NCBI GenBank assembly: GCA_947184155.2 | Contig: CAMXCT020001381.1 | Location: forward strand, 1-64,000 | From: Cladocopium goreaui | Lineage: Eukaryota > Sar > Dinophyceae > Suessiales > Symbiodiniaceae | DNA: 64,000 nt | Direction of reading: 5' to 3' | Shown here: positions 23,742 to 45,813 of the stretch, one piece after another | Layout: the number at the start of each line of letters is the position of its first letter | Position numbering within the stretch: the first letter of the stretch is position 1 | Notes under the pieces: generated by a model | What the model saw: only the letters and a program-made list of their open reading frames with translations | What the model was told of the DNA's origin: nothing | Database searches by the model: none | Program-made: the position numbers and the translations under genes

Positions 23742-23959
23742 TGTCAAAGGGAACTGCACGGTAGCTTACAGTGTCATGTACATATTCATGCATGTCAACT
23801 GTATTGCGACTTATGCCAACTTGTTTGGCTCAAGATCCAATCATTGCAAGGTAAAACAGCGAGCGCTTGCCACCGCATGTCGTCGGCTTGAGGCTAACAA
23901 CGTTGACACTTGAGCACCTGACTGCATTGTAACCCGGAACAAGGGTAGAATTGTTCACA
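23742..23959 (+). repeat. 5' LTR
   Basis: 218 bp, TGTCAAAGGG...TTGTTCACA. It differs from the 3' LTR at only two positions (T/C in CTTATGCC, A/G in GTAAAACAG). It contains TTTGGCTCAAG at 23824-23834, identical to the last 11 bases of the spliced leader. No clear TATA box or polyadenylation signal was recognised. Confidence 0.95.
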
Positions 23960-23990
23960 GGTTATCAGCCGTAGTGCTCTTACCCTCAAC
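23960..23990 (+). promoter_or_regulatory. Primer-binding site resembling an internal tRNA region
   Basis: The bases directly inside the 5' LTR are GGTTATCAGCCGTAGTGC then TCTTACCCTCAAC. Their reverse complement reads GTTGAGGGTAAGAGCA, like a tRNA D-arm, then CTACGG, then CTGATAACC, like an anticodon loop with GAT. There is no TGG complementary to a tRNA CCA end. Drosophila copia is primed by a 5' half of initiator tRNA ending in the anticodon stem, and this site has the same layout. One extra base in the anticodon stem and the unidentified tRNA leave doubt. Confidence 0.5.
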
Positions 23991-24076
23991 GATGGAAGGG
24001 TGCTCACGTGCTGTTAGCCGACGCCTGGAGCAAACGATCGTGGACGCAAAGAACCGATCAGCTCTACATCGCAAAG

Positions 24077-25200
24077 ATGCAAGGCAGCAGTGGTGACACT
24101 CGGTTTACCTTCAACGACGATCCTGTAGCGCCAGCCGAAGAAGCTTCGCAGACTTCACCTGGTACTGCAGAAAGTGGGTCGAAATCAACAATGTCGAGAA
24201 CGACTATGTCAGGATGGAATATGCCTGGACTGCGGAGGAGAGCTACAGCTAGTACTCTAAGATCGGCACGTGATGGCGCTCAAAGTGGAACACGACAAAG
24301 AAGCCATCGGTCGCCGAGAAGAACACCTACCCGACCGGGAACTCCGAGAGCAATCGAGGACCAACCCGGCAGGACAAGGGATGACGGTCGAACCAAGAGA
24401 CGAACAGCAGAAACAAGTGGAAGTAGAGGAAGTAGAGAACCCATTTCAGTAATTGATGAACTAAGTCCCTCCAAGAGAAGATGGCCCAGTTGGAACTATA
24501 TGCTGCGTCACGGGATCAACTCATCAAGGATATTGAAGTCAAATTCACGGACTACCTCCGGATTCAAAATCAGAATGTGTATGATGAATTCAATACCCTC
24601 AACCAACGATTGATGTACTCAACCAATGAAGTTGCAGAATATCAAGCTGAACTGATGTTAGCTTCTCGAGAAGATGAGGGTGCAACATTTCGCATCGAAG
24701 AACTCGAACGCCGAGGTGGCCTCATGGCGGACGGAGCCGGGAGAATTCATCAACGAGGAATGGAGATCCAGGAAGAGTACAAGGACGAAGTATCCCACCT
24801 TCGAGGACTATTGGGTAACACTGAATCAAGATTACAACAGATGCAACATAACAGTGATCTTGCTACAAGTGTTGCTGAGAAGTTGTTGCAAGAAGGAAGA
24901 GAGATGCAAGCTGGTCTTGAGAATTCCATAGTGGAGTATCGTAATCAATCCGAACTGGTATCGTACTCTCAAACTCATCTGGAGATGGCCAATCAACGAC
25001 GAACTTTTGAGGTTAAAGAGTTAATGGATGAAAACAATTTGATGAGTGAAGCACTAGTACATTCCCGTAAACAAGCTGAGTTGTATGAGAACAGTATGAA
25101 ACAGATCACTAGAGTCATTATAGAAAGAAGGTACATGAGGCAAACCAGGCCAAGATTGAGAGTGATCTGCGTCACCGAAACACCGAGCATGATACAATGA
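24077..25200 (+). pseudogene. Gag N-terminal region, frame-shifted
   Basis: The likely start is MQGSSGDTRFTFNDD at 24077. Coding-like sequence moves between frames near 24270, 24480 and 25130. It includes a Ser/Arg/Thr-rich segment, a charged stretch (KVEHDKEAIGRREEH) and a long coiled coil (24481 onward: RDQLIKDIEVKFTDYL, SRLQQMQHNSDLATS). The last shift is local: VHEANQAKIESDLRH is in frame with the downstream ORF. With repair of single-base shifts it would be one gag N-terminus joined to the 25197 frame. Confidence 0.6.
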
Positions 25201-28200
25201 AGCGCTTTGAGGCTTACCGGAATGTCGAATCTGAGGCTATCGCTCGACTAAGGCTTGAATCCAATCTGAGCGTGAGTGCCAATAGCAAGATGGAGCACTA
25301 TGAGAAGCTCTACGAGAATGAACATGCTCTGAACGATGAACTCCGAGCTGAGGTCAAGGACCGGGAAACGAAGTTGAGACGATCATTGAGAGAGGATCCT
25401 GCGGCCAACGGCGAAGGTCCTAATCGAGTCGCGATTGAACACCTCGAGAGTCAGATCAAGATCGCACAGATTAGGACCCAGGACCTTGTGGAAGAGCTTG
25501 GAGAATGCATGTCTGCCAATATCAGGCTGAAAGATGAAGTGGCTGAAGCTCCGAAGTTAGGGCCCACGACTCACTTTGGTTCTGAAGTTGCGACACTTAG
25601 GTCTGAATTAGAAAGTGAGCGGAAGTTGAAGCTGGCTAGTGGCGCCCAACATTATGAAAGGTCTTGTGAATATATGGGGGAACTTCGGGATAGGGATGAA
25701 ACGTTGAAGTTAAAGGATTCCGAAATTCAGAACATGAAACGAAGTGTTGATGATTTGAGAAGAAGCTTAAGAGATGCAGAGATAATCATCAAGACTCAAG
25801 GGGATCCTAGCCGACTCCCTTACTCCGCAGGTATCCCTCCGATCGACCTTTCATCGAGGTCTAAAGTTGAGGCATTGGAGAACGAGGTGAATGCAGCAAA
25901 CACCGAGATGACTGTGCTTAGGGCATGGAACCGACAATTGGATGAGGCGCTGAATGAAGAGATGAACGCCGCCAATGCCGGTTATGTCTATGATGAGCCA
26001 GTCAAACAACAGCCATCGCAACCAGGTCAACGAGTGGCCGAACTTCTGCGTGATGTTGATCGGCAGATTGCTGCTGACATGAGAGCACAGGGATTTGATG
26101 TTCCGAATGGAGACGGACCTCCTGATCCAAGTGGACCACCAGAACCTCCTGGACCACCAGGACCACCAGGACTTCCTTCAGTTCGTGGATCCCAGAGAGA
26201 ATCTGCAGCCGATGATGTATCTACGACGGCATTTACTGCTGTTGAACCTCCAAGAGTTTCTCGAAGGGAAGCCGACAAGGTGTACATCGGCCCATGGCCG
26301 AAGCATCAAAATCTTGGAGTGTGGACATCTGACCTTATCAAGAGCGTCTGTCTAGCCGCCAACGACGGTGATAGAGCTTCTTGGGAGGCATGGTTACAAC
26401 CGGCAACACAGCAAAACCCTGACCTTGACTTCCTGAACGACAGTGATGGCCAGAGATTCCAATCTATCGACGCAAAGCTTTCCATTGCTCTGTCCAATGT
26501 CATCACCCAGGCTGGTGATGTTGCTCGACATGTAGCTATGAAGCTGAGGTTGAGGACTCAGGCACATGGTCGGAGAGGAACATATGTCATGGGACGGGAA
26601 ATACTTGCCATGATCTTGAACCATTTCAGAACACCAGGGCAACGAGAGACCGCATTCACGATGGAGCACATCATTAAATCGCAATACCTTGGAGATGCGA
26701 ACATTGAAGTGCTCTACGAAAAGTGGATGGAAATGGTCACAAACATGATGCCGGATGACATCCCTCCTGATGATTGGTTACGAGACGTTCTATATAAGAA
26801 AATCAGAAATTCCCATCTGTTGATGTTTGATATCAAGCAATTTGAATCATGGATTGAAGGAGATCCTAGGATATCCTACCAGCATCTTCTCGATGTTATG
26901 GAGCGACAGATTGCCAGGATTAGAGAAGACAAACATGTTGCTGCTAGAGAGAAGTATGCAAGAGATTTCGCTGGTGGAGGGAAGACTACGACACCTGCAC
27001 CATCGACACCCGCTCCACAGGACGCAAATCCGAAGGCCAAGGAGAAAGCTGCTCCGAAAGCCAAAGCTAAAGTCGTGGCTGCTCCGGTTCTACCATCTCC
27101 CCAACCGAAACAACATGCCAAAGGTAAAGGGAAAGGGAAGAAGTGTGGAAAGTCGAAGACTCCAAGTCCAAGCCCACGAGACAAGAAGAAGATTCCATGT
27201 CATTTCCACTTTATCAAGAAGTCTTGCAAGAAAGGAAAAGATTGTGAATACAGTCATGATCAGAAGACGTTTGATGCTAGCAAGACTGGCGGATCGGGAA
27301 AGGGAGGTGGAAAGACGCCAAGAAGTCAATCTCCAGCCAATAGGACAAAGAAGATAGATGAGCCATGCTGGCATTGGGCGAAAGGGAAGTGCCGCTACGG
27401 TGACAAGTGCAACAAACGACATGATCCACACTTGTTCAACACGGCACCCAACACTGAGTCAGCTTCATCCAAGGCGACTCCTGCACTTCTTCATGATGAT
27501 AGCGGTGACGAGATGCCGATCTTCAAGGCAGCATCCAGTCAGATGAAGAAGAAAGTCAAGTTCGACACGAAGGAAGATGAAGTTCATGTTTATGAGAAGA
27601 AAGACTTCGTGAAGTGTACCCGTAAGTCTCAAACTGACCCCAAGATGCATGGAAAGGTAGGTAAGACCACGGAAGAAATCAGAAAGGATGATCAGTGGGC
27701 CTACTCATGCAGACATGCACTCAGCCGAGGAAAAGCCATGGCCATTATCATGGATGAGAGAGGAGACGTCATCGTCGGCCCGACGTTGGACATCATGATC
27801 AAGATGGAACTCGACGATAATGATGAACCGGTGAGAGAAGTCTTCGTCGAGAACTACGTCCAACATGTGGAAGGTCGATATGGCAAGAGGGGAAACATCA
27901 TGTGTATCACAGTGCCGGTTGAGGAGAGAGACAAGAGATTCATTATGGATTCTGGTAGCGGACATGATCTCATCTCTGCTAGAAAGATCGACAGAATGGA
28001 TCTTCCAACTTATGATGACACAACCGTGAACTTCCATACCGCAAATGGTGTGACCAGCTCAATAACACGTTCCGACATCGAGTTCGAGGTCTTTGATGGA
28101 CCTGCTCAAGCACATATCCTGGAAGATACGCCCTCAGTGCTATCCATGGGGAAACGATGTCTTGACCTTGGATACTCATTCATTTGGCCTTCTGGGAAAA

Positions 28201-28823
28201 GCCCATATATGCTTGATGCCGACGGACACATCATTGAAATGACTGTCAAAGACTACATCCCATATGTGAGCATCGATCAGAAGAAGAAGAAAGGACGATC
28301 GTCAAGAATCGAAAAGATCCTGAACATCATCAGTGACGAATGCTCAACATCTGAGGGCGAGAACATGATGGTCATCGATGGTGAAAGTGGAGATGAGCTG
28401 GAAGATCTTACCGACAACGTCGGAAGATCAGAAGGCAAGTCGCACAATAGAGCCAAGAAGAAGAAGAGCAAGGGCAAGAAAGCTATGAAGATGCCCGAAG
28501 TTGCCGTTGGTAGTGATGCAGGTGATGCTGAAGAAATGTCATGTTATGCAGCCGATGATTGTGATGAATTTGATGACGATTCTGGATATGAACCAAGCAT
28601 CGGTCCTGACGTCGAGGATGTGGAACATGACATTGAAGTTGAAAAGATTCCTGATGGAGGTGCACGTGAAGATGATGACGACGTCATTGATGTGGATGAA
28701 GAGGATGGCAGTGTCAGACTGAGCAAGAGAGGAGCCCTGAAGAATGAAGCAAGAACTAAGGTTCACCTCTTAACTCATCGATACAAAACCCTTATTGTGA
28801 GTCATATGTTCGTGCCAAGATGA
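25197..28823 (+). CDS. Gag-protease polyprotein with CCCH fingers
   Basis: 1208 codons. Residues 1-200 are coiled coil; about 305-325 is a Gly-Pro-Pro collagen-like run; about 360-590 is the copia-like gag core (VYIGPWPKHQNLGVW, DVARHVAMKLRLR, ISYQHLLDVMERQIA). Two CCCH zinc fingers follow at Cys668 (C-X8-C-X5-C-X3-H) and Cys724 (C-X7-C-X5-C-X3-H) instead of a retroviral CCHC knuckle. The aspartic protease is FIMDSGSGHDLI with catalytic Asp918. Acidic and Lys-rich linkers lead to HLLTHRYK, the start of an integrase zinc-binding motif that is cut by a frameshift near 28782. Gag packages element RNA; the protease matures the polyprotein. Continues in the next frame at 28820. Confidence 0.85.
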   Translation: MKRFEAYRNVESEAIARLRLESNLSVSANSKMEHYEKLYENEHALNDELRAEVKDRETKLRRSLREDPAANGEGPNRVAIEHLESQIKIAQIRTQDLVEELGECMSANIRLKDEVAEAPKLGPTTHFGSEVATLRSELESERKLKLASGAQHYERSCEYMGELRDRDETLKLKDSEIQNMKRSVDDLRRSLRDAEIIIKTQGDPSRLPYSAGIPPIDLSSRSKVEALENEVNAANTEMTVLRAWNRQLDEALNEEMNAANAGYVYDEPVKQQPSQPGQRVAELLRDVDRQIAADMRAQGFDVPNGDGPPDPSGPPEPPGPPGPPGLPSVRGSQRESAADDVSTTAFTAVEPPRVSRREADKVYIGPWPKHQNLGVWTSDLIKSVCLAANDGDRASWEAWLQPATQQNPDLDFLNDSDGQRFQSIDAKLSIALSNVITQAGDVARHVAMKLRLRTQAHGRRGTYVMGREILAMILNHFRTPGQRETAFTMEHIIKSQYLGDANIEVLYEKWMEMVTNMMPDDIPPDDWLRDVLYKKIRNSHLLMFDIKQFESWIEGDPRISYQHLLDVMERQIARIREDKHVAAREKYARDFAGGGKTTTPAPSTPAPQDANPKAKEKAAPKAKAKVVAAPVLPSPQPKQHAKGKGKGKKCGKSKTPSPSPRDKKKIPCHFHFIKKSCKKGKDCEYSHDQKTFDASKTGGSGKGGGKTPRSQSPANRTKKIDEPCWHWAKGKCRYGDKCNKRHDPHLFNTAPNTESASSKATPALLHDDSGDEMPIFKAASSQMKKKVKFDTKEDEVHVYEKKDFVKCTRKSQTDPKMHGKVGKTTEEIRKDDQWAYSCRHALSRGKAMAIIMDERGDVIVGPTLDIMIKMELDDNDEPVREVFVENYVQHVEGRYGKRGNIMCITVPVEERDKRFIMDSGSGHDLISARKIDRMDLPTYDDTTVNFHTANGVTSSITRSDIEFEVFDGPAQAHILEDTPSVLSMGKRCLDLGYSFIWPSGKSPYMLDADGHIIEMTVKDYIPYVSIDQKKKKGRSSRIEKILNIISDECSTSEGENMMVIDGESGDELEDLTDNVGRSEGKSHNRAKKKKSKGKKAMKMPEVAVGSDAGDAEEMSCYAADDCDEFDDDSGYEPSIGPDVEDVEHDIEVEKIPDGGAREDDDDVIDVDEEDGSVRLSKRGALKNEARTKVHLLTHRYKTLIVSHMFVPR

Positions 28824-29275
28824 AGCACAGGAAAACGTTTAGGGGAGCATTTCAACGCAAGCTCACGAAGTTTGGGGACCTTGTTACGTTTGACTATGTC
28901 GACAATCGTCGAATTGCTGAACAGGACTATGGAGACGACAAGACCATCTTTGTCATCCGAGATCGGTATACTGGAATGATCCAGTCCTACCCGTCTGCAC
29001 GCAAAGACACAGACGCTGTGATTCGAGCAGTGAAGCAATTCATGGGTCGTCGAAAGATCAGAGAGGCCTATTCACATGATGCCCCACAGTTCGACAAGGC
29101 AATGAAAGCTCTGAAGATTCCCATGGATACGTCTCTGGCCGGAAAGACAAAGCACAACTCGCTTGCTGAAAGAACGAACCAATTCGTGTTGGTGGCAACG
29201 ACTACATGTCTGCTTGAAGCTGGTATTCTCCTTGTTTTTGGATGTATGCCATCAAGTGTGTTAGCCATTTGTTGA
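28820..29275 (+). CDS. Integrase catalytic core
   Basis: Frame change from the previous ORF near 28782. The rve-type core shows FGDLVTFDYV (first Asp), YSHDAPQF (second Asp, His in place of the more usual Ser-Asp spacing) and NSLAERTNQF (Glu). All three DDE residues are visible. The upstream zinc-binding end reads NPYCES in the shifted frame, so one Cys of the HHCC set seems lost. Inserts element cDNA into the genome. The 3' end passes into a third frame near 29240. Confidence 0.75.
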   Translation: MKHRKTFRGAFQRKLTKFGDLVTFDYVDNRRIAEQDYGDDKTIFVIRDRYTGMIQSYPSARKDTDAVIRAVKQFMGRRKIREAYSHDAPQFDKAMKALKIPMDTSLAGKTKHNSLAERTNQFVLVATTTCLLEAGILLVFGCMPSSVLAIC

Positions 29276-30201: not shown

Positions 30202-30701
30202 AGAAAAGAGAAGAAAAGAAGAAGGATAAAGCTGATAAGAAGTCTTCAAGCTCCGGAAAGAAGAAGGATGATGATCACGAGACAGGAGTGGCCAAACCAC
30301 AGGATCATGTTTGCAGAGGGAAGATATTTCAGTATGGTAAAGTGCCCCCTATTCCCCACGGGAAAGGGACTACTGCTACTGTTGCTGATTTGTCTGACAC
30401 TGACGTTCCTGAAGATGATGACTTCATCGTGGAATGGGACGAATGGTCCGAGGTCGAGAAAGGACGAGGTCCGAAGGCCACGTGGCACAATGACCACGTG
30501 TATGACTTCAACCAGGGAAAGGTGGTCGCAACCGCAACTTTGCACGACGCGGGACCCAGTATTCATGAATCATGTGACTCGATCGGGAACATTCATTCAT
30601 TTCCATGCATGCCATGCATCAACCAATATGATTATCATCGAGAAAAGAATCTGTTGATGATGGTGGCATTAACCTCAACAAGATGTTCAACACTGCAGTA
30701 G
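30150..30701 (+). CDS. Charged linker between integrase and RT
   Basis: 183 codons in another frame. A Lys/Glu-rich start (KIKESEGRMKKREEKK) is followed by an acidic patch with VEWDEWSEVEKGRG. It overlaps both neighbours and has no known domain. Probably the natural continuation of the integrase-RT linker, reached by a frameshift. Confidence 0.5.
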   Translation: MERKKSEAKIKESEGRMKKREEKKKDKADKKSSSSGKKKDDDHETGVAKPQDHVCRGKIFQYGKVPPIPHGKGTTATVADLSDTDVPEDDDFIVEWDEWSEVEKGRGPKATWHNDHVYDFNQGKVVATATLHDAGPSIHESCDSIGNIHSFPCMPCINQYDYHREKNLLMMVALTSTRCSTLQ

Positions 30702-32818
30702 CACGTCCAGTTGCTAGGAAGGAAATGATGGAAAATGAAGATGCCCGTAAGGCCATGAGGAAAGAATGGTTAGGTCAACATGCAGCTGGAGTTTATGACT
30801 TTAGCGTGGTTAGAGAGTATGATGATGTTGTTCGTGAAGCAAAGAAAGATGGAAAAGAAGTACGCATGGCAAGGATCCATGGCATTTGTGTAGAAAAGAA
30901 CTATCAGTTGCCCAAAGGTAACCCCAGCAGAAAGTTCAAAGGGCGAGGAGTACTGCTCGGCAACCAAGTCAAGAACCAGTTTTGGGAGGCTGCATTCTTC
31001 CAGGACCTTGGCAACTCGCCTGCGACATTTGAGGCATCCCGCTGGGCGGACTTCTACGGATGTTTCCCAGGGCATGGAGTAGAGCTAGCTGATGCAATCC
31101 AAGCATATATTCAGGCAGTCCTGACGGGGCCACCATGTTGGGTGGAATTACCAGAGGATGCATGGCCAGATGATGTTGACTTTCGGAAGTTCCGTAGACC
31201 AGTAGTGAGATTGGTAAAAGCATTCTATGGTCATCCTGATTCAGGAACAATGTGGGAACAGCATTGTGATCGGAAAGTACGGGAGTTAGACTTCATTCCG
31301 GTAGGAGAAGAATGGCCATCAATGTATTTTCACAAGAAGCTTCAATTGCTTTTGGTTATCTATGTGGATGACCTGAAACTGGCAGGGCCGGAAGAGAACC
31401 TGACTAAGGGATGGGAGATGCTTCGCTCTAAGCTGAACACTGAGCCCGAAACTGATTTAGGACTCTATTTGGGATGCGTATTGAGCAAGGGATCTGCCAA
31501 ACTGAATGATGGTACCCCGGTATCAACTATGACCTATGACATGGAGGGTTTGTTGAAACTGTCAGTGGAAAAATATCTTGACATCGTGGGAAAAGATACC
31601 AAACTGAAGAATGCATCAACCTCCAGTCTTCCGGAAGAAACCAAGAAACACAAATCCCGAGCACCATGTCCAGGGAATCCCAAAAACAAGGTATCCTGTC
31701 CTTGGTGTTCTCATGAATTCGATCCGGGCGCGCCGGAGTTTTATCAACCCGGTACCACAGGGGATGACGTCTCCTCTGGGGAGTCTGCAAGAGGCGCACT
31801 TGCACCACATGCTGCCAGTGTACTCATGAAGTTGTTGTATGCTGCCAGGATCGCACGATTCGACTTGCTTAGGTCAATCAAATCACTGGCCAGGAATGTG
31901 ACCAAATGGACAGTCGATGATGATGCAAAGTTGTATCACCTAATGTGTTACGTCAACTCTAGTCTAACCAAAAGAATGACAGGATGGGTTGGAGATAAAT
32001 TCAAAGATCTCTCATTATCTCTTTTCGCTGACGCGGATTTTGCAGGGTGTGCTCAATCATTGAGGTCTACATCTGGGTCTCATATGCACATTCAAGGGCT
32101 TCATACCCGCTTTCCCCTGTCTGGAGGCAGCAAACGTCAGGGATGTGTAAGTCATTCCACTCCTGAGGCTGAGATCGTGGCTGCTGATGTCACGCTTCGG
32201 ACAATGGGATTGCCTGCATTGAGCATTTGGGAGTCACTCACGGGGAAATCGCCCAAATTATTGTTTCACGATGACAATCAGGGCATGATCGGTGTGGTCC
32301 GGTCGGGTCGTAACCCCACTATGCGGCATCTTGAGAGGACCCATGGCATAGCCATTACTTCACTCCATGAACATTTTACAAGGGAGAACTACGTGCTTAT
32401 GTATGAAGTTACTTCCAAACGGCCGCGGACATTCACACCAAAGGATTCAAGAACCCCCTTGCATGGAAAAGAGCATGTATGCTCATCAATTTGTTGGACC
32501 CTGGCGATCTCAGTTCGAAGGACCTCAGTGACATGGTCTCACCGGCAACTGATGTCGACACTACGGTTCGCCAAGTTTTTCAAACCAAAACCAATGAAGT
32601 TCCAAATTTTCCGTATACCGAAATCCCCATTCTACCACCAGAGGTGTATCAGAAAGGGCTTTCAGGTAAAGAACAAGTCCAACAACTACCAGGAATGGAC
32701 CCCATTTTGGTTGTCAAGACGCCTACCTTCTTTCGAAGGCAACCACCAGGTGTGTCGTTACCTAATGACTGTTTACGCAGTACATGGATATTGGCTCATG
32801 GCAAGTGGATCAAAGTAG
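30683..32818 (+). CDS. Reverse transcriptase-RNase H (Ty1/copia)
   Basis: 711 codons. The RVT_2 domain: RKFKGRGVLLGNQVKNQ, VELADAIQAYIQAVLTG (catalytic Asp), VVRLVKAFYGHPDSG, LVIYVDDLKLAG (YVDD, Tyr227). The RNase H part begins LFADADFAG (Asp450), then SGGSKRQGCVSHSTPEAEIV and FHDDNQGMI, ending TMRHLERTHGIAI. These residues convert element RNA to DNA and remove the template. After about 32420 the protein-like sequence switches frame and continues at 32479, so the last 120 codons are probably out of frame. Confidence 0.9.
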   Translation: MFNTAVARPVARKEMMENEDARKAMRKEWLGQHAAGVYDFSVVREYDDVVREAKKDGKEVRMARIHGICVEKNYQLPKGNPSRKFKGRGVLLGNQVKNQFWEAAFFQDLGNSPATFEASRWADFYGCFPGHGVELADAIQAYIQAVLTGPPCWVELPEDAWPDDVDFRKFRRPVVRLVKAFYGHPDSGTMWEQHCDRKVRELDFIPVGEEWPSMYFHKKLQLLLVIYVDDLKLAGPEENLTKGWEMLRSKLNTEPETDLGLYLGCVLSKGSAKLNDGTPVSTMTYDMEGLLKLSVEKYLDIVGKDTKLKNASTSSLPEETKKHKSRAPCPGNPKNKVSCPWCSHEFDPGAPEFYQPGTTGDDVSSGESARGALAPHAASVLMKLLYAARIARFDLLRSIKSLARNVTKWTVDDDAKLYHLMCYVNSSLTKRMTGWVGDKFKDLSLSLFADADFAGCAQSLRSTSGSHMHIQGLHTRFPLSGGSKRQGCVSHSTPEAEIVAADVTLRTMGLPALSIWESLTGKSPKLLFHDDNQGMIGVVRSGRNPTMRHLERTHGIAITSLHEHFTRENYVLMYEVTSKRPRTFTPKDSRTPLHGKEHVCSSICWTLAISVRRTSVTWSHRQLMSTLRFAKFFKPKPMKFQIFRIPKSPFYHQRCIRKGFQVKNKSNNYQEWTPFWLSRRLPSFEGNHQVCRYLMTVYAVHGYWLMASGSK

Positions 32819-36716: not shown

Positions 36717-36842
36717 AGGCTCTCCACCCGACAAGCCGCCCAAAGCATCGCAGACTTACCAATCCCGCCTGAGATTGCCACAGACCTGCTTGCGCGCTGC
36801 CTTCGAAAGTTCCCTGCGGAAACTGCGCCAGGGCCTTCAGGC

Positions 36843-37862
36843 TTGCGGGTGCAACACTTACGGGACGCTTGCCCGGCGGGCGGCGATGAAGCTTTGTTGG
36901 CTCAACTTTGCGCTGTTGTCAACTTGTTGGCTCAAGGGCGGGCCCCCGACTTTGTCGCCCCGGTTTTGGCCGGTGCGGGGCTGGTGGCTTTGCCAAAACC
37001 CAATGGCGGGGTCCGCCCCATTGCGGTTGGTGAAATCCTCCGCCTTCGACGCCTCACAAGCAAATTCCTTATGACCATGGTTCGGGATGACGCGCGGGCC
37101 TTCTTCTACCCGGCACAAGTTGGGGTGGCTGTTCCTGGAGGAAGTGAAAAAGTCATCCACACCGCTAGGGCTTGGTGGCAGAGACACCGCCACGGGCCTT
37201 CGCCAAAAGTTCTGCTGAAATTAGATTTTGCCAATGCTTTCAACACCGTGGACCCGGACTGCCTTCTACCCATTGTTCGAGACCAATTCCCTGGTTTGGC
37301 CCGCTGGACCGCCTGGTGCTATCGTCAGCCCACTCGGCTTCAGTTTGCCAACCACACCCTCGAGTCTCAAACCGGGGTACAGCAAGGGGACCCGCTGGGG
37401 CCGCTGCTTTTTTCCACTGCCTTGCAACCATTGGCTTCTGAACTCCGCACTTGTGGGCTGGACATTGCGGTCCACTATCTGGACGACGGGGTGCTTGCTG
37501 GGGACCTTGCCGTTGTCAGCGATGCCCTCCGCTTAGTGCAATGCCGCGCCACTGCCATTGGCTTGCGCCTCAACTTGAGCAAATGTGACCTGGTGCCCGT
37601 CGGCCCCGTCAACATTGCCGGGCTCCACATGCACTTCCCCGACGCCCTCCTCGCGCTGCAGACGGCTCCAGCAAAGTTTCTCGGCACCTGGGCGGGGCCA
37701 TTGGCGACGACGATTTCGTCCACCAGCACACGGTTGAACGAGCGGCCAAAGCCGGCGACCTTTTGGATGCAATCGGGGAGCTCCCCCAGACCCGCAAGTG
37801 GGCCTTCGGCTCCTCCGCTCCTGCGCTGGGTTTGCCAAGCTGGTTCACAGCATGCGCTGTAA
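36843..37862 (+). CDS. Nested LINE reverse transcriptase
   Basis: VALPKPNGGVRPIAVGE, LLKLDFANAFNTVD (catalytic Asp), TGVQQGDPLGPLLFS and VHYLDDGVLAG (YLDD) are RT motifs 2 to 5 of an R2-type enzyme. The thumb region ends in a frame change near 37750, beyond which the correct frame is 37763-39007. Confidence 0.85.
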   Translation: MRVQHLRDACPAGGDEALLAQLCAVVNLLAQGRAPDFVAPVLAGAGLVALPKPNGGVRPIAVGEILRLRRLTSKFLMTMVRDDARAFFYPAQVGVAVPGGSEKVIHTARAWWQRHRHGPSPKVLLKLDFANAFNTVDPDCLLPIVRDQFPGLARWTAWCYRQPTRLQFANHTLESQTGVQQGDPLGPLLFSTALQPLASELRTCGLDIAVHYLDDGVLAGDLAVVSDALRLVQCRATAIGLRLNLSKCDLVPVGPVNIAGLHMHFPDALLALQTAPAKFLGTWAGPLATTISSTSTRLNERPKPATFWMQSGSSPRPASGPSAPPLLRWVCQAGSQHAL

Positions 37863-39007
37863 TGCGCCAGGCGCCCAACAGCATGTTTGATGGCATGGTG
37901 CGTCGCAGCTTTGGGGATCTGACAGGGCTTCACCCTACGGGAATGCAATGGCAGCAAGCTTCCCTCGGGCTTGGGCATGCTGGGTTGGGTTTGCGATCCA
38001 CAGCCAAGCACGCCTCGGCTGCCTACCTTGCCTCGTTGGGGGAGGCCTCCACTGCAGCCCAGGACTTGGACACCGCCTTCTCTGCCGAGGACCTGCGATC
38101 TTCCCATGACGTGCGTGAGGCGTTGGCAGCATTGAACGCTAACTTGCATCCCCAAGACCAAATTAGCTTCGAGGCCGCCAGTCACTCCAAACAACATGAC
38201 TTGTCTTTGAAGCTAGACCTTGCGGGATGGCAGGAACAGCTTGGCCAGGCTACCGTTGTGGGTCAAGCCACTTTACAGTCAGAGGGCTGCTTGGGTGCAC
38301 GGGCCTTCTTGGCAGCCCTACCGGCTGGCCGGGGGCGCATGGAACCTGCCACTTTTGTTGCAGAACTACGCGCTCGTTTGGGCATTCCGGATGCAGACGA
38401 GGATGCTTGGTGCCCCCATTGCGATGGGATCTTGGACGTGCAAAACTACCATGCAGGGATGTGCGCTGCAGGTGGTGAGAGGACCCAACGGCACCACGCC
38501 CTGCGAGATCTGATTTTCGTATGGGCTGAAAGAGGGGGGCTCCGCCCTGAGAGGGAGAGACCGGGTCTGCTGCTGCCACAGTCGCCTCATGACACCAGCA
38601 ACTCAGGCCGGCGACCAGCTGATATTTACCTTCCGGCGTTGGCCGGGGCTCCTGCTGCACTTGACTTTGCTGTAACAGCACCACAGCGGCAGGAGACCTT
38701 GGTTCAAGCTAGTCAGCAAGGGGCTGCGGCTGCCACGGCATATGCCCACCACAAGGAGTCCTACCTGCAGACTGGAGAAGCTTGTCGAAGCCAAGGAGTG
38801 CAGTTTGTGCCCATGGTTATCGAGAGCACAGGCGCTTGGGACCCTGCGGCCATGAAGATTTTGAAACACATTGCTCATGCTGCCGCAAGCCGTGCTGGCA
38901 TCGACCCAGCTGACAGTCTCAATCAATTGCACCAAGAGGCCAGTGTCTGCGTTCGGACATGGCGGGCCCGAGCCGCCTTGCGCCGACGTTGCGAACTCAC
39001 AGCTTAG
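37763..39007 (+). CDS. Nested LINE C-terminal domain: CCHC finger and restriction-like endonuclease
   Basis: After a connector (SWFTACAVMRQAPNSMFDG), WCPHCDGILDVQNYHAGMC gives a Cys-Cys-His-Cys finger. RRPADIYLP then AALDFAVTAPQR is the PD-(D/E)xK core of the endonuclease, followed by HHKESYLQTGEACRSQG and FVPMVIESTG. The order finger then nuclease is that of R2/CRE-type elements. The catalytic residues appear present. Confidence 0.75.
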   Translation: MDAIGELPQTRKWAFGSSAPALGLPSWFTACAVMRQAPNSMFDGMVRRSFGDLTGLHPTGMQWQQASLGLGHAGLGLRSTAKHASAAYLASLGEASTAAQDLDTAFSAEDLRSSHDVREALAALNANLHPQDQISFEAASHSKQHDLSLKLDLAGWQEQLGQATVVGQATLQSEGCLGARAFLAALPAGRGRMEPATFVAELRARLGIPDADEDAWCPHCDGILDVQNYHAGMCAAGGERTQRHHALRDLIFVWAERGGLRPERERPGLLLPQSPHDTSNSGRRPADIYLPALAGAPAALDFAVTAPQRQETLVQASQQGAAAATAYAHHKESYLQTGEACRSQGVQFVPMVIESTGAWDPAAMKILKHIAHAAASRAGIDPADSLNQLHQEASVCVRTWRARAALRRRCELTA

Positions 39008-39015
39008 GCATGCAG

Positions 39016-39918
39016 CCCACAGCCTCCCAACTTCTCATTGCCTATGGTGTATCCTCCACACTTCAAATTTCTGCTGCTCAAGCTCTTGCTAAGCTTATGG
39101 ATGCTGCTGCTCTTCTGTTTTCCCTCGGGCACTGCACCAATGAAACACTTCCAGAAGTTGACGCTGTCATCTGGCTCACTGACCTGGCTGCGCCATCTTC
39201 TCCTTCAAGCTGAGTAGACTGGATGCGCGATCTTTCCCACTAGCTAATGGACTCTACAAACGTAGTGTCGATGTTGGCTCGTCGATTTAGGGCTTCTCAC
39301 CCCCTGTGTCTCTTGTATGAGGCAATCGAAATGAGGAACAGGACATTTTCCTGCATCCACGATTTCATCACTACAACTTCTGCAAGCCAGGTTGCCCAAG
39401 GTGCATCCGAAGTGACACAAATCCCTCGGTGGGATGAGCCTCTGCAACCAAAAGACGGACGTAACCCTCCTGCCCATGCAGTCCCACCATCCTGGGACCC
39501 GCAACCAATCGTCATGATGAATGCCAAGCAGATGGCAGCGGAGGAGGAGAGGCGACGAAAAGAAGCAGCATCACAGCCACAGCCAGAGGCGAAGGCGCGC
39601 CCTACCTCCCCCAGAGGCGGTGCATCGGAGCCAACGGGATCGGCTGGGGCATCTGCAAAACCGCCGCCAAAGTCTCGATCAGCACTACCGCCCACACCTC
39701 CTGATTGGGTGATTGCCAAGGTACCAAGTGGATATCTTTTCAAGACGTCCACAAACCCAGACCATCGCGGATCATTGTTTATGACATCTGCGTGGATGAA
39801 TGACCTTGAACAGTTTTTGCTATCGATCATGCAGGGCCCTGCGGCATCTGCTTCCGGCGTCACAGGCTGGGCACAGTACCTTCGCCGAGTCTCTGCATAT
39901 GGTTGCATGATCTTCTGA
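39016..39918 (+). CDS. Accessory ORF 4 of the giant element, broken at its 5' end
   Basis: The frame reads QLLIAYGVSSTLQISAAQAL and ETLPEVDAVIWLTDLAAP, hits stops near 39212 and 39242, then is open from 39247. Later segments: LLYEAIEMRNRTFSCIHDF, a Pro/Ala/Lys-rich linker and PPDWVIAKVPSGYLFKTS to the stop at 39918. No domain recognised. Stops near the LINE boundary suggest damage by that insertion. Confidence 0.45.
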
Positions 39919-40012
39919 GTGTGCAATCCTGCGTTTGTCACTAATGACGACGCAGCGAAGATTTCGGAGGCAGATTGGTTGAAGTGCTACAGCCATTTAG
40001 GTTAGAACGCAC

Positions 40013-43000
40013 GTGATGCCGCACGTGTTGGCAAAGACTGGATGCTATCTCTCGACTGCAGGACTGTTGATGATGCTCGGCAAGCACAACACTGAGGTTG
40101 CCAATGCCTCGGGAAGAATCAAGAAGAACATCTCCAACCCGCTGGCCTGCAGAATTGTCGACTCACCACATGTTGTCAGAGATTCAGACACGCTCGCTGG
40201 TGAATTCCGACGAGGTACCACCATCTTGATCACGGATTTGATGTTTCGGGTGGGTACGCAATCAGGATGTCACGACATGGGAATGGGGCTTGCTGACATG
40301 GGTTGGTCCATCGAACTGTTCAAAATTCACGAGTCTGAGGCCGAAAGACCCATTGAACAGTTCTTCGAAACCATGGAGCATGTCACTGAATATCTCAGCC
40401 AGGTCGCCGATGAGGGCAACATCACAGTCCACATCTGGTTATCGTTGCAGTTTCTGCACGCAAAGCGTCCACCTCACTATGTTATGTTGGAGAACACCTT
40501 CATGACACAGTTTATCAAAGCGGTGCTGGACCTTGATCAACTCATCTCAAGGCCAGTGATTATTGCAATCAACAACGACTCCATGTTCAATTGCATTGAC
40601 TCCATCACTTCCAGGACTGCCGTGGAGATGACCGAACGATTGAAGGCTCAGGGAGTGATGGTGACCACTGATCAACGAATGTGGAGGTCAATGTATTCCC
40701 AATTTGGGAAGCAATTTCCAATCCTGAACACCACCAGAAAAGGGTCTCTTGGAAAGACCGCGATTTGGTCAGTCATCGAGAAGAACCTGTTCAGGCAGAG
40801 AGTGTTTTTGATGTGTGCGACAAACCGGGAATATGTGTCAACCCTCAACGAGGGTGCATATAAACCTGACCAGTCTGGCATTGATCCTGCACTCTTGAGG
40901 GAAGTCACTGGGCCTACTCACGTCTTCAAGATCGCCAGTGGAGAAATGACTCCCGAGGACTATGCTGCTGCAGATGCGACGGTCTTCCAAAAGGGTCCAC
41001 CAGATGGCGCACCAACAACCAGGTTTAACAAGGACAAGCGGTACAAGGCCCAATGGGTCGAACCGATGGTACCGATCCATGAGTTGGAACCGTCACCAAT
41101 ATCTACTTGCTATTGGTTCCCTGTATTCAGCGATAGCATGGATTTTTTGTGTGACAGCTGCCGAAGAGCACAAACCATGGACGAGATCGAGATGAACCAG
41201 AGCCGACCTGCAACTTGCATCAATTGCTCTGCAAATACACAGGACCATTACAAGAAGTCTGCACCAACTCTTGGTGCCAGAAAGTCTGTGTTGATGCTAG
41301 CAGCTCGTTTGAAGGTTGCATTCGCAAACTGTGATCGGAACGAAATATTTGCTCACACGAGGGCATCCGCGGAGAAGGTGGGAGACATCATCGAGTTTTG
41401 GCTGGGCGTTCTTGACGTCGCCAACATGACAAAGGGCCTAGTCGATGTTTTCGATGTCAACACTGACCCTGCTGACTTCCTCAATGGATTGGAGAAGGCT
41501 CTCAGAGGTTGTGGATCGGTCTCAAGAACCACTTCAACAATCAACGACAAGAGGCGCGGGTCATTTGATTGCACCCTTCAGCCAGCCGAGGCAGAAGAAG
41601 TCCTAAGGATCCTCAACGGCATCCCAGACTACGAAAGCTTGCGTGACTTCAACTGTATGACAGACCTCGAAGCCGCTTTCGTGATCCAAGAGTTCCACAA
41701 GAAGAAAGGCATCTCAGGTGATGACGTCGACATGGGTGATGATGCGGAAGCTCAACCGGGACTGGGGTCCACGACCCACCCTGGAGAGGCAGATGCAGAA
41801 GAGCCTCAAGATGACTTTGCCGATGCCGCCAGAGAATCCGAAAGATCTGGAAAACAGCAGCTCTTGGATGCGCTGGGAAACCTCTTTGCCGTCTCCGAGT
41901 CCGTGAATGTTTGCATCTTCTGTGGAAGTACGAAGCATGACCATGCCGATTGCACTGATCCAAAGAAACCTGACATCAACAAAGTGCTAAAAGGGATTCG
42001 GACGTCATTGGAAGACGAAAGCTCAGGATCGGATGTGGACATGGAGGCCGAGGGTGGCGAATGGAAAGGGAGTGCTGAGGAAGCTGGACAACAAACCACT
42101 GAAGAAGAACCAGCTGAAGCCCGCACTGGTGAATACCATTGGTATGACACCGTCCTATACATGTCCGAAGTGGGCGATGACGAAGCAGGAAAGTTCTGCA
42201 TTAGTGGTAGGAACATCACCGAAGAAGGACCACGAACCAGGAGTGAACTCGATGACGTCATTCGTGACGCAATTATTCGTGGTGGCGGAGATGTTTGGAA
42301 AGTTCCAGACTTCATGGCGGCGTACACCGACACCAACCTCCGCAAACCCATGTACAAAAGAATCGAGGCCCCTGCAGATGGATTCCTCAAAATCGTGCCA
42401 AGCACAGGGGGTTCCTTCTTCAACTACGAGTTCTACAACGGAGTCGAGATCGACATCAACTACAGGTTCGGACAAAGAAACGAACTCGAACCCTATGAGA
42501 AGGACGTGAGCACCGCTCTGAATCGCGTCCTCAGGCATCATGCGGGCAAAGTTATGGAAAGGGTCCATCTTGGTCTCAAATGCGATGATGCAGGCTGGGT
42601 TCCGATCGACGACCTCCTCAAGTATGAGAACGTTTGGAAACAGGACTCGTCAAGATCCCCACATGTGTTCCTAGCCCCAAGAGGAAAGAGCTACGACAAA
42701 CGAGCATGGGACAAACAGGAGGCAGGCTATCGAATGAGCGTCCTGTTCATGGTCATGTTCCATTGTGCTCGATATGGGCAACGTGTCCGTGAACAAATCC
42801 TTGCCTTCGGCATCTACCCGGACATCGACAGGAACAGTGAAACATGCAGGGCAAATGGTGTCGACCGCAAAACAAAGATTCCAGAGGAAGGGTTACTTGT
42901 GTATGCGGTGGCCGTCAGAGCACCAACAGGTCACAAGCTCAGCCTGGTCAATGACGTCACTTTGAGAGCATCATTATTGTCCCATCCGATCGCTCCGAAC

Positions 43001-43531
43001 ACCGTGATCTTGCTTCCAGTATGTTTTCACATCACCATGAAGGATCGATTGAAGAGCATTTGGAAAGAGGGACTGATCCCTGGCGGCTTGGATGGCAACA
43101 CGAGGATTTTCACGTTTTGCAACCCGTACGTCCCTTGGGATCAACGATCCTGGACTGTCACCAAAAGCGTGGATACTCGCCTGGGAGGATATGTGTGCCT
43201 CTACATCCCAACCGAGACTCTCATGAGGGACTTTGGAGGTCGTCTTACCGACTCAGGCCAAGTCGTCACCGATCAAATTGTACCTTTCTCAAAGATCCGT
43301 GGAGGATGGATCCAAGATGCGAATTGCAGATGGCATCGCCTGATCGTTCCATCGGGCGAAGAACAAGTCGTCAGAACCGGATCTGTCAAATCCAGAAAAG
43401 TCGCGACGAAGGAGTCGGTGATTCGGATCGCTCAACAGTGCGTCAAGACGATGGACGTCATGACCATCTTAAGTCGCTTCGAGAAACGTCAAATCATCGA
43501 AGGGGGCAAGGAACAATACGAGGCGCAATGA
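40013..43531 (+). CDS. Accessory ORF 5: CCHC knuckle and Tpt1/KptA-like RNA 2'-phosphotransferase
   Basis: 1172 codons, intact. Residues about 60-240 form an alternating strand/helix region of unknown family (TTILITDLMFRVGTQSG, TVHIWLSLQFLHAKRP, SRPVIIAINNDSMFNC). Near 380-410 a four-Cys ribbon (CDSCRRA, CINCSA). Near 635 CIFCGSTKHDHADC is a canonical CX2CX4HX4C knuckle. From about 830 the Tpt1/KptA pattern: STALNRVLRHHAG (Arg841-His842), DDAGWVPIDDLLKYE, VRAPTGHKL (Arg969, Gly973-His974), VCFHITMKDRLKSIWKEGL (His1006) and GGRLTDSGQVVTDQIVPF. That family moves an RNA 2'-phosphate to NAD+. An insert of about 60 residues separates the first and second boxes. Presence within the LTR boundaries makes it element cargo. 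Confidence 0.75.
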   Translation: MMPHVLAKTGCYLSTAGLLMMLGKHNTEVANASGRIKKNISNPLACRIVDSPHVVRDSDTLAGEFRRGTTILITDLMFRVGTQSGCHDMGMGLADMGWSIELFKIHESEAERPIEQFFETMEHVTEYLSQVADEGNITVHIWLSLQFLHAKRPPHYVMLENTFMTQFIKAVLDLDQLISRPVIIAINNDSMFNCIDSITSRTAVEMTERLKAQGVMVTTDQRMWRSMYSQFGKQFPILNTTRKGSLGKTAIWSVIEKNLFRQRVFLMCATNREYVSTLNEGAYKPDQSGIDPALLREVTGPTHVFKIASGEMTPEDYAAADATVFQKGPPDGAPTTRFNKDKRYKAQWVEPMVPIHELEPSPISTCYWFPVFSDSMDFLCDSCRRAQTMDEIEMNQSRPATCINCSANTQDHYKKSAPTLGARKSVLMLAARLKVAFANCDRNEIFAHTRASAEKVGDIIEFWLGVLDVANMTKGLVDVFDVNTDPADFLNGLEKALRGCGSVSRTTSTINDKRRGSFDCTLQPAEAEEVLRILNGIPDYESLRDFNCMTDLEAAFVIQEFHKKKGISGDDVDMGDDAEAQPGLGSTTHPGEADAEEPQDDFADAARESERSGKQQLLDALGNLFAVSESVNVCIFCGSTKHDHADCTDPKKPDINKVLKGIRTSLEDESSGSDVDMEAEGGEWKGSAEEAGQQTTEEEPAEARTGEYHWYDTVLYMSEVGDDEAGKFCISGRNITEEGPRTRSELDDVIRDAIIRGGGDVWKVPDFMAAYTDTNLRKPMYKRIEAPADGFLKIVPSTGGSFFNYEFYNGVEIDINYRFGQRNELEPYEKDVSTALNRVLRHHAGKVMERVHLGLKCDDAGWVPIDDLLKYENVWKQDSSRSPHVFLAPRGKSYDKRAWDKQEAGYRMSVLFMVMFHCARYGQRVREQILAFGIYPDIDRNSETCRANGVDRKTKIPEEGLLVYAVAVRAPTGHKLSLVNDVTLRASLLSHPIAPNTVILLPVCFHITMKDRLKSIWKEGLIPGGLDGNTRIFTFCNPYVPWDQRSWTVTKSVDTRLGGYVCLYIPTETLMRDFGGRLTDSGQVVTDQIVPFSKIRGGWIQDANCRWHRLIVPSGEEQVVRTGSVKSRKVATKESVIRIAQQCVKTMDVMTILSRFEKRQIIEGGKEQYEAQ

Positions 43532-44263
43532 TTGAAGTTGGTGGACTACATCCTCGAAAGAAAGGCAGTGACCGAGGCTGGATGTAGGTTCTGCCCACAC
43601 TGTCTCACCGAGACGCCGATGAAATTCTCAAGTTGCGTGGGATGTTGAACCCCGCTAGAGAGCCACGGCATCAGGCCATATCGTCTTGATGATCCAGTTG
43701 ATGAAGAAGACGAAGACGAGGCCACCAAGAAACAGATCGATGAAGAGATTCGCAAGGCGAATGAATCGATGTTCAAAGATACCGTCCATGAAGCTCAGGA
43801 GAACGCTGAGACACGAAGTCAGTTTGACTTTGATCCCGGAGAGGTCGACTATGGCGAAGAAGATGAAGAAATGAACGAGGAAGAAGAATCCGAGGACGTC
43901 GAGATCGAGATCGATGAACAAGAAGATGAGGTAGACGTCCAACAGGAGGAAGTCGACCGGGAGACGGAGGAGAGAACCAATCAACTCCCCGCATGGGCCC
44001 TGAATTTGGATGCTGGTTGCAAAAGAATGCCAGTCAAGGGGCTCGTCAACATCGACGTGTCTGAAGCTGCCGCCCAACTGTTTGACAACGCGGTGATCTC
44101 CAAGATCCTGCAGATGTACAAACACTATTACGACCAAAGAGTTATGATGTCACCAGATGACTACTACAACAAAATGGTGAACAACAAGCTTGGTCGATTG
44201 GACCTCGATGGCATTTGCCCCTATTCAGGGGAATGCGCTGATGTTAAGGCAGCCGACAAATGA
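43532..44263 (+). CDS. Accessory ORF 6: zinc ribbon plus acidic protein
   Basis: Protein-like sequence begins just after ORF 5 (VDYILERKAVTEAG, CRFCPHCLTETPMKFSSC, a Cys4 ribbon), is broken by a stop near 43645, and is then open to 44263 across a frame change near 43770. The second half is strongly acidic (EEDEEMNEEEESEDVEIEID) and ends with LPAWALNLDAGCKRMPVKG and MMSPDDYYNKMVNNKL. Function unknown. Confidence 0.5.
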
Positions 44264-45116
44264 CCAGCTCATGGAGTGGTACGATCTGAAGGCGGCACCA
44301 ACGTCATGGTCGAATGGCGAAAGATTGTTCGGCGGCAGGCCGAAGAATATGATGAAGTACGTGGTGAACACGCTCATGATGTACGAGAAGATGCTGGAGT
44401 TCCTCGTGCACGCCGGATATACTCCGGACCGGATGAAGTTCCTCACCCCGATGAACAAGATGAAAGGGACTAACGAGGAGAAAGGAGAAATGAGGAAGAT
44501 GATTAGTGACTTCGTGTCACGATTGCTCAAGGGCGCATTTCCATCTTCCGAGCACTACACCTACTTCAGGTCAGGTGACCATGGTTTTCCGGAATGTCAA
44601 GAAATTCCTGCATTCACAGTGTATCTTGCATTCCACGAGACACAACGCAGCGAAGAACTTCTAATCGCTGCGCAACAATGCGGAGTTGTTCTTCCTGAAC
44701 TGTTTGTGGCAAAGATGGCATACTCGATGTCATACGCTGAGCAGGAGGCCCAACGTGGAAGATTGACATGGAAATCGACCTTGGCTCCAAACCTTGACCC
44801 GAAGATAACGGAAGACGTGTTTCGGAGCATTGCAGACAATGAATGCGCTCAACGAGCAGCAGAAGCGTCAAGAACTGCTGCATCAGGTCAAGGACAAGTT
44901 CCCAAAGCGGCAGGGCCGAAGCCACCTCCGGCAAAAGGGGCTGGTTCCGAAGCTTCGTCGTCTTCCTATGCTGCCCCATCATCATCTCCGGCACAAAAGG
45001 CGAAATTGCCACAGAAAGCAATGCCTGCCAAGGCCGCACCGAAACCATCGAGACCACCGCCTAGCGAGAAACCACAACAAGCGCCCCAGTTTAAGAAGAA
45101 GAGAACCGACCAGTGA
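44190..45116 (+). CDS. Accessory ORF 7: basic Ala/Pro-rich protein
   Basis: 308 codons overlapping ORF 6. The first 70% is helical (LMEWYDLKAAPTSWSNGER, NTLMMYEKMLEFLVHAGY, HETQRSEELLIAAQQCG). The last 80 residues are Ala/Pro/Lys-rich (KAMPAKAAPKPSRPPPSE), ending KKKRTDQ, which could bind nucleic acid. Last coding sequence before the 3' LTR. No family recognised. Confidence 0.55.
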   Translation: MVDWTSMAFAPIQGNALMLRQPTNDQLMEWYDLKAAPTSWSNGERLFGGRPKNMMKYVVNTLMMYEKMLEFLVHAGYTPDRMKFLTPMNKMKGTNEEKGEMRKMISDFVSRLLKGAFPSSEHYTYFRSGDHGFPECQEIPAFTVYLAFHETQRSEELLIAAQQCGVVLPELFVAKMAYSMSYAEQEAQRGRLTWKSTLAPNLDPKITEDVFRSIADNECAQRAAEASRTAASGQGQVPKAAGPKPPPAKGAGSEASSSSYAAPSSSPAQKAKLPQKAMPAKAAPKPSRPPPSEKPQQAPQFKKKRTDQ

Positions 45117-45578
45117 TCACTACGGGGCTATGTGGCGTACATCATCTTCGTTGGCTACGGATGATGAAGAACTATGACTTTTGAGAGGACTCTGAGCGTG
45201 GCTAGTGTACAGTCATCTTAGATTACTTCTCAAGTCAATTCCCAATCAACTAATTCACTTTTCTTTTCTTTGTACAGAGTAGATTTGCTGATTGCCGGTT
45301 TGCTACTCACGTAGACGCGATGTGTTAGTTGCGTCCAACGGACGGCTAACATCATCAATTCGCAGTGTAGTTAGCGTAGTTTGAAGTGGGTCCATTTCTG
45401 TACAGCATGATACTTCTACCCACGCGATTGCCACAAAGATGGCATGGGGATCTCCGACCCTGCGTCCAACGGACAGGTGAGGAGTGAACCACGATTTCAA
45501 ATTCTTTTGCGGTAGATGTAGCGTGCATTGATTGTTTTCTTTGTTCCCTCTCTCGTGCCCAAAATTTGAAACAACTTC
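45117..45578. other. 3' untranslated region of the giant element
   Basis: No coding sequence. GCGTCCAACGGAC is repeated at about 45330 and 45461. Ends in the polypurine-like tract. Confidence 0.5.
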
Positions 45579-45590
45579 GGGCATGGGGGG
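45579..45590 (+). promoter_or_regulatory. Polypurine tract
   Basis: GGGCATGGGGGG abuts the 3' LTR exactly, the position needed for plus-strand priming. It is short and has one CAT interruption. Confidence 0.7.
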
Positions 45591-45808
45591 TGTCAAAGGG
45601 AACTGCACGGTAGCTTACAGTGTCATGTACATATTCATGCATGTCAACTGTATTGCGACTTACGCCAACTTGTTTGGCTCAAGATCCAATCATTGCAAGG
45701 TAAAGCAGCGAGCGCTTGCCACCGCATGTCGTCGGCTTGAGGCTAACAACGTTGACACTTGAGCACCTGACTGCATTGTAACCCGGAACAAGGGTAGAAT
45801 TGTTCACA
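45591..45808 (+). repeat. 3' LTR
   Basis: 218 bp, two transitions from the 5' LTR. Contains TTTGGCTCAAG at 45673-45683. Followed by TATCC, the 5-bp target duplication. Confidence 0.95.
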
Positions 45809-45813
45809 TATCC

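Follow-up and report, generated by a model that had tools for sequence, protein, structure and literature searches.

A giant copia-type retrotransposon of Cladocopium goreaui with a single long polyprotein frame and the 3' end of the spliced leader in its LTRs

We have characterized a copia-type retrotransposon at positions 23742-45808 of a 64,000-nt stretch of Cladocopium goreaui DNA (contig CAMXCT020001381.1, forward strand), referred to here as the window. All features of the element and its inserts lie on the plus strand. Two direct repeats of 218 bp (5' LTR, 23742-23959; 3' LTR, 45591-45808) differ at 2 positions and have TG...CA ends, and the target site duplication (TSD) TATCC flanks the copy on both sides. 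A polypurine-tract-like GCATGGGGGG (45581-45590) lies directly 5' of the 3' LTR. The near-identical LTRs, the duplication and the polypurine tract reported in a preliminary description of this DNA were thus all recovered. Its PBS-like site, GGTTATCAGCC (23960-23980), does follow the 5' LTR directly and is kept in two further copies, C1335 and C6079, but matched no tRNA. Both of these copies also have an LTR pair with TG...CA ends and a 5-bp TSD; the LTR match of C6079 covers 202 bp at 99.0%, with six of those bases outside the LTR. An unbroken unit of the flanking minisatellite, with the target sequence, is present at 45937. The 22,067 bp therefore represent a single insertion in the minisatellite.

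The gag zone (24044-28787) is split into several broken frames and corresponds by homology to polyprotein aa 3-1609. It contains two CCCH fingers above the Pfam cutoff (27198-27257 and 27366-27422) and an aspartyl-protease-like DSG site (27939-27971), the protease match scoring 20.2 bits, under the 24.3 cutoff. An integrase core (28769-29227), with motifs recognized by eye at 28883, 29072 and 29162, is 93% identical to C6079 aa 1604-1756. Reverse transcriptase and RNase H occupy 30644-32470, with YVDD at 31358-31387 and copia RNase H motifs; the RVT_2 match scores 27.5 bits in the window, under the Pfam cutoff of 31.6, and 32.0 bits in C6079, over it. The succession of fingers, protease match, integrase motifs, RVT_2 and RNase H is the copia order and agrees with the gag-pro-int-RT-RH set described earlier. 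Integrase lies upstream of reverse transcriptase, unlike the gypsy order (reverse transcriptase before integrase) of Burro-type elements. For a copia element, the window element is exceptionally large.

Its size had been given as 22 kb, of which about 3.4 kb is nested DNA outside the canonical element. A non-LTR retrotransposon (LINE) fragment at 36231-39312 (boundaries good to ~25 bp) has an RVT_1 match (E 5.8e-17) and a GC content of 0.57-0.61, and a second insert of ~0.36 kb lies at 33088-33444 (ends approximate). Both are missing from C1335 and the public protein P0072, and the small insert is also absent from C6079. The sister copy C1335 is collinear, measures 18,908 bp and has the remainder of the 33-45 kb region. 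The window copy, in turn, is without ~0.3 kb at 41,332 that is found in C1335, C6079 and many public proteins. Since nine LTR pairs in the same 1.17-Gb genome are spaced ~18.9 kb apart, the canonical element is ~19 kb, and the window element is a decayed copy of this abundant Ty1/copia-type element.

The tail after RNase H is ~3,200 aa long. The end of pol and the first tail segment (32422-33087), with no recognised domain, precede a second segment (33445-34319; dN/dS 0.12), a C5-DNA-methyltransferase (DNMT)-like domain (34307-35287) and a mainly helical segment (35251-36230). The tail resumes after the LINE with a further segment (39313-39999), followed by an SGNH/GDSL-hydrolase-like fold (40202-40819), a C2-C2 zinc ribbon (41150-41227; ~100 codons of relatives are missing just downstream, at 41332), a CCHC zinc knuckle (41912-41953), a KptA/Tpt1 RNA 2'-phosphotransferase-like domain (42494-43309), a second C2-C2 zinc ribbon (43583-43645), and an acidic linker with a conserved C-terminal domain that ends the polyprotein (43847-45113; dN/dS 0.07). 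The ribbons, knuckle, acidic part and enzyme-like domain noted previously are correct. Pfam and NCBIfam scans of the tail used seven C6079 pieces covering it except for residues ~3601-3609, 4061-4139 and 4981-5149; KptA alone exceeded the Pfam cutoff, and NCBIfam returned only a sub-threshold KptA and one chance match. Rfam at gathering thresholds gave no match within the window.

The DNMT-like domain, with the fold taken from homologue P0097, shares the overall C5 DNA methyltransferase fold in structure comparison (Foldseek E 0.056, weak; structure matches given here rank top among the candidates that Foldseek itself selected). It contains a motif-IV-like PCTGGSPW (within 34442-34477) and an ENV-like ELPRGCDYW (within 34607-34639). 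In an alignment of 51 rows, PC is invariant in 45/45 and E in 46/46 ungapped rows; assigned to motifs by eye, we take these to be the motif IV Pro-Cys and the motif VI Glu. The SAM-binding motif I of C5 DNMTs is FxGxG; the giant elements have no recognisable motif I and read CSEE or CAET instead, and divergent relatives (e.g., P0141-P0143, P0145, P0151) have an EFCCG..S..G-like sequence there. SGNH/GDSL hydrolases have their catalytic serine in block I. The second domain shares their fold, with Leu at the serine position in the window (ITDLMF within 40223-40255) and Leu or Phe in all 21 rows having that position (22 shown of 52 aligned). Because motif I and the catalytic serine are missing, both domains may be inactive, and neither an active methylase nor an active esterase is claimed. 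The KptA-like domain gives a profile match over the curated cut-off and shares the fold (Foldseek Tpt1 E 0.021, weak). Its motifs are LRH (within 42515-42550), VRAPTGH (within 42911-42937) and CFHIT (within 43019-43045). LRH occurs in 7/7 KptA rows, P0062 being without it. A weak profile match (probability 10%, E 0.003) aligns the RH with E. coli KptA, and VRAPTGH resembles RAVQGH of that protein, with the fourth Arg of the Arg-His-Arg-Arg tetrad placed by eye only. Among sequences of solved structures the KptA piece found no match, and a 7-row KptA profile found one chance antibody match (E 0.052) and not Tpt1. From profile matches and structure comparison, the tail is predicted to combine DNMT-like and SGNH/GDSL-like folds, the latter lacking the catalytic serine, with a KptA/Tpt1 domain.

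At least seven plus-strand frames follow RNase H in the window, and the preliminary description took them for further genes. The frames are real; their separateness is not. They could be read as a provirus-like viral module of several cargo genes with their own starts. Against this, a single open frame of 6,044-6,068 codons was found in 16/150 scored relatives from the same 1.17-Gb genome (nine of exactly 6,048; the other 134 copies have shorter frames). One such frame spans the whole coding region of C6079, and the frame changes in the window copy can be placed along a single polyprotein. The Pfam scans returned no envelope-like match, and viral contigs scanned with P0091 gave no match. Seven separate genes are ruled out by the long frames and the mapping of the window pieces, and we consider a multi-gene module highly improbable. 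On sequence comparison, what looked like seven cargo genes is one long polyprotein frame broken into pieces by frame changes. The family polyprotein, of ~6,048 codons, would run from gag through CCCH fingers, protease, integrase, reverse transcriptase and RNase H into the tail. Insertion or capture of foreign DNA in this copy alone would explain the LINE at 36.2-39.3 kb with its increased GC and the small insert at 33.1 kb, both absent from the sister. It does not explain the remaining sequence at 33-45 kb, which C1335 and C6079 carry end to end in the same order. Parts of the region match many further genome places (the KptA part gave 61 matches among scored places, and the DNMT-like part 131 match rows in 126 candidates that were scored), and public proteins also span it. 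Other copies thus do have this region, the absence of which had been named as grounds for abandoning the element as described; part of it is missing from two relatives with internal deletions. For everything but the LINE and the ~0.36-kb insert, private insertion or host-gene capture is ruled out, and as an account of the whole region it has a negligible chance of being correct. A first look at the genome gave 1,488 candidates for gag, of which 150 were scored; the corresponding figures were 2,981 and 126 for the DNMT-like domain and 1,134 and 61 for the KptA part. Fragments or spurious matches may be present among the unscored candidates; the family looks abundant in the host genome. The tail domains could also be inert passengers kept solely through fusion to pol, as canonical residues are missing in two of the three enzyme-like folds and deletion derivatives of 13.8 kb and ~8.8 kb exist. 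This is improbable in light of the tail dN/dS, which the preliminary description had proposed to determine and which is 0.07-0.22 (paired across frame breaks, with dS high in the 3' third), the invariant PC and E, the LRH of the KptA rows and the tail order retained in P0122 at 24% identity. As judged by these ratios, the tail is under purifying selection.

The LTRs hold a further feature. The dinoflagellate spliced leader has TGGCTCAAG as its 3' end, and this sequence occurs in 27/27 LTRs checked, most of which were retrieved through their similarity to two LTRs holding the leader motif; the strand of 20 was set by that motif, and their ends agree with the chosen strand. Both window LTRs carry TTTGGCTCAAG, the last 11 nt of the leader (23824-23834 and 45673-45683). 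The commoner LTR type reads CCATTGTGGCTCAAG, 14/15 identical to a leader relic. Short blocks elsewhere in the LTRs, namely ACAAGG and both LTR ends, are conserved as well. TGGCTCAAG could be an ordinary promoter or processing motif that merely resembles the leader: the leader portion invariant across LTRs is the last 9 nt only, ACAAGG and the LTR ends are conserved too, the 9-mer occurs 8 times outside LTRs in 232.5 kb (~2 expected for equiprobable 9-mers), and TTT(G) of leader relics is proposed as a promoter motif in PMC6050394. We consider this the less likely reading, because the best leader-suffix match in each of six LTRs (9-15 nt) was reached by 0 to 5 of 5,000 first-order resamplings, the match is on the sense strand in every LTR case, and the C6079 LTR contains in full the 15-nt relic form present at 10717-10731 in a LINE elsewhere in the window.

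The explanation that we favor, with good confidence, is a ~19-kb copia element with one ~6,048-codon polyprotein that includes the tail, a degenerate window copy, and the following proposals for leader and tail. These proposals, in which the elements depend on the spliced leader (the R region beginning with the host leader) and the tail ships DNMT-like and KptA modules with the cDNA, are themselves tentative and somewhat short of an even chance. Genomic RNA would be trans-spliced to the host leader at the AG ending TGGCTCAAG in the LTR; the leader at the RNA 5' end would then match the copy of this motif that the 3' LTR carries, which would supply terminal redundancy for the first strand transfer. 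Rewriting of the whole leader in each cycle would predict a match longer than the last 9 nt. The element's protease would free the tail, which would travel in the particle. There the DNMT-like fold may modify or bind the element's own nucleic acid as cDNA, the KptA domain may act on RNA or cDNA ends by repair or ADP-ribosylation, and the SGNH-like fold may be a binding module. The window copy has near-identical LTRs yet many frame breaks; its mobilisation probably took place in trans, with further DNA landing in it afterwards.

No description of these element features was found in the open-access literature searched. The family shares gag-PR-IN-RT-RH, RVT_2, short TG...CA LTRs, a 5-bp TSD and a polypurine-tract-like run with Ty1/copia elements, and differs in its ~19-kb size, ~6,048-codon frame, ~3,200 aa after RNase H, CCCH fingers in gag and spliced-leader 3' end in the LTR. 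Burro elements of planarians are likewise giant LTR retrotransposons with an enormous polyprotein (ORF1, 4,873-5,140 aa) and additional domains (BIR, ankyrin, BCL2-like, MATH, env-like) (PMC6431247), but they are gypsy elements; ours is copia, with a longer frame and DNMT-like, SGNH-like and KptA domains after RNase H. SymbioLINE-Dnmt and SymbioDIRS-Dnmt3, LINE and DIRS elements of Symbiodinium, also join a dinoflagellate retroelement to a C5-DNMT-related domain; their DNMTs keep key residues (PMC5890265), whereas here a divergent DNMT-like fold, recognized by structure comparison, lies in copia. The KptA-like domain resembles KptA/Tpt1 enzymes in Pfam match, fold, LRH and RA.xGH-like motifs (PMC6333775, PMC9503650) but is embedded in a retrotransposon polyprotein. 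The survey of viral KptA reports phages, a few DNA viruses and polyproteins of +RNA viruses; its main text contains neither the word retrotransposon nor the word retroelement. SGNH/GDSL-fold modules occur as GDSL esterase ORFs in bdelloid LTR elements and Terminons (PMC5408684; PMC6431247); the bdelloid module is a separate ORF, and ours is an in-frame fusion without the catalytic serine. Dinoflagellate retrogenes carry spliced-leader relics, which are reverse-transcribed leader sequence in the genome (PMC6050394, PMC7245778); here such sequence lies in both LTRs of an LTR retrotransposon and is conserved across subfamilies.

In the literature consulted, the 6,048-codon frame would be the longest uninterrupted reading frame of any LTR retrotransposon, exceeding the Burro ORF1 of 4,873-5,140 aa (PMC6431247), and it occurs in a superfamily thought of as compact. 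A DNMT-like fold is now placed in copia, which, according to the Symbiodinium DNMT retrotransposon paper, 'lacks any DNMT domain' (PMC5890265). LTR-driven retroposition is a suspected source of many dinoflagellate retrogenes (PMC6050394), and through the leader in the LTR it could be connected, in a testable way, with trans-splicing in dinoflagellates.

The copia-type element at 23742-45808 in the window is enclosed by direct repeats of 218 bp (23742-23959 and 45591-45808) that differ at 2 positions and have TG...CA termini; the element is flanked by TATCC at each end and has a G-rich PPT-like run inside. An intact minisatellite unit beside the element provides the equivalent of an empty site. 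The insertion is therefore real, and the LTR, TATCC and PPT bracket around the copia gene set stands with its ends as placed in the preliminary description. The minisatellite at the insertion site (45807-46283) has spacings of ~43 bp and ~153 bp.

The further reading frames that were originally regarded as separate are pieces of one polyprotein frame. After RNase H, the window reading frames switch frame repeatedly, and public proteins read across the breaks; one homologue, P0072, spans 31976-40885 but leaves out 33,088-33,444 and a nested LINE. C6079, a full-length copy in the same genome, has a single 6,045-codon frame between its LTRs, and 17 stretches of the window element, which shift between reading frames and contain nine stops altogether, are collinear with residues 3-6045 of this polyprotein, with gaps at about 4,682-4,790 and of a few residues elsewhere. 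Among 150 scored places matching the C6079 gag N-terminus, drawn from 1,488 first-look candidates, 16 had frames of 6,044-6,068 codons (exactly 6,048 in nine) and 134 had shorter ones. A single giant frame is well supported. The protease match in the window copy falls under the Pfam cutoff, as does RVT_2, which is above it in C6079. P0151, a distant copia protein of 2,213 aa, has RVT_2 and KptA Pfam domains together, so the KptA domain may have been gained long ago or more than once.

Other copies were sought in the 1.166-Gb genome containing the window and compared for internal content. A sister copy at C1335:1352798-1371705 (18,908 bp; 217-bp LTRs with 9 mismatches; TSD TAATA) aligns with the window element from one LTR through to the other, and the two differ on a larger scale at three places. 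The sister is without about 36,231-39,312 of the window, a nested LINE with a non-LTR RT and GC near 0.6; about 0.36 kb at 33,088-33,444 is missing from both it and C6079; and about 0.3 kb at window position 41,332 is missing from the window copy. Searching with the C6079 LTR gave 275 candidates, and the 40 scored matches included nine same-contig pairs 18,892-18,934 bp apart (C6079's own among them; the C1273 spacing was adjusted because of a partial match). The window LTR gave 14 matches, four at ≥98% (the window element's own two LTRs and those of two fragmentary copies) and ten at 70-75%. Fragments of the window subfamily lie at C1381:99887-100423 (5' LTR plus ~320 bp) and C6096:29031-30352 (3' end with an internal deletion). 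C5916:225689-239498 (13.8 kb) and C1335:1485403-1494174 (about 8.8 kb) have LTR sequence at both ends, are internally deleted and look non-autonomous. At the protein level, relatives nearer to the window copy (88-90%) occur at C66, and organism-named relatives came only from Symbiodinium microadriaticum and Symbiodinium sp. KB8. Together with the full spliced leader present in the window, these point to a dinoflagellate host.

Against the C1335 sister, dN/dS, approximate because codons were paired across frame breaks, was 0.04 for integrase, 0.06 for RT, 0.20 for RNase H and 0.07-0.22 for tail segments (the putative cargo), with a maximum of 0.34 in the integrase-RT linker. In the same comparison, dS was 0.26-0.61 through the DNMT-like domain (0.84 in the linker) and 0.88-3.2 downstream of it; against the more distant C6079, many segments were outside the method's range. 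This rise in the 3' third suggests mosaic elements, which may have been made by template switching.

The window LTRs differ at only 2/218 positions, and the frame is nevertheless broken many times. The window copy probably moved when already defective, aided by active relatives, and the inserts would have entered it afterwards; assembly indels could contribute to the frame breaks.

The LTRs also contain spliced-leader sequence. GGCTCAAG is present in sixteen LTR sequences, namely all 14 window-LTR matches and the C6079 pair, and TGGCTCAAG in 27/27 LTRs of a second, overlapping set. Among eight representatives with <85% identity, TGGCTCAAG is invariant, as are short blocks at both ends and near the 3' end. 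TGGCTCAAG is the 3' end of DCCGUAGCCAUUUUGGCUCAAG, given as the dinoflagellate spliced leader in PMC6050394. The C6079 LTR was identified independently of the motif and most others by LTR similarity; the strand of 20 LTRs was assigned by motif and is consistent with the LTR ends.

A non-LTR element on the plus strand (10696-20391) starts with a full spliced leader and a 15-nt relic (10696-10731), followed by a third TTGGCTCAAG at 10740. The C6079 LTR matches this relic form at 15/15 nt, and the commoner LTR type carries CCATTGTGGCTCAAG (14/15). In 232.5 kb selected partly for its LTRs, TTTGGCTCAAG occurred 11 times (nine in LTRs, two in the leader array of this non-LTR element) and TGGCTCAAG 20 times (12 in LTRs, 8 elsewhere, including three in the array). 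Plus-strand occurrences of TGGCTCAAG outside both were at window 5927, 8212 and 36928, C5916:225349 and C1381:105884. Downstream of its leader, the non-LTR element encodes an OTU cysteine protease domain in a frame of 1,570 codons, then an endonuclease-RT in a further frame; another frame has DEAD/ResIII/UvrD-like helicase matches. Helitron-like remains on the minus strand (56349-63778) include frames that match DUF6570, a PIF1 helicase and, at a score under the cutoff, Helitron_like_N.

From the position and conservation of the leader sequence, our preferred reading is that the AG ending it in the LTR would act as a trans-splice acceptor, and that the spliced leader would provide the terminal redundancy of the element RNA. 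In searches of open-access papers, no description was found of a giant dinoflagellate copia polyprotein, a KptA domain in a retrotransposon, a DNMT domain in copia or a spliced leader within an LTR. The tail functions and leader-dependent replication are proposals for testing; the element family itself is a real and striking variant of Ty1/copia.
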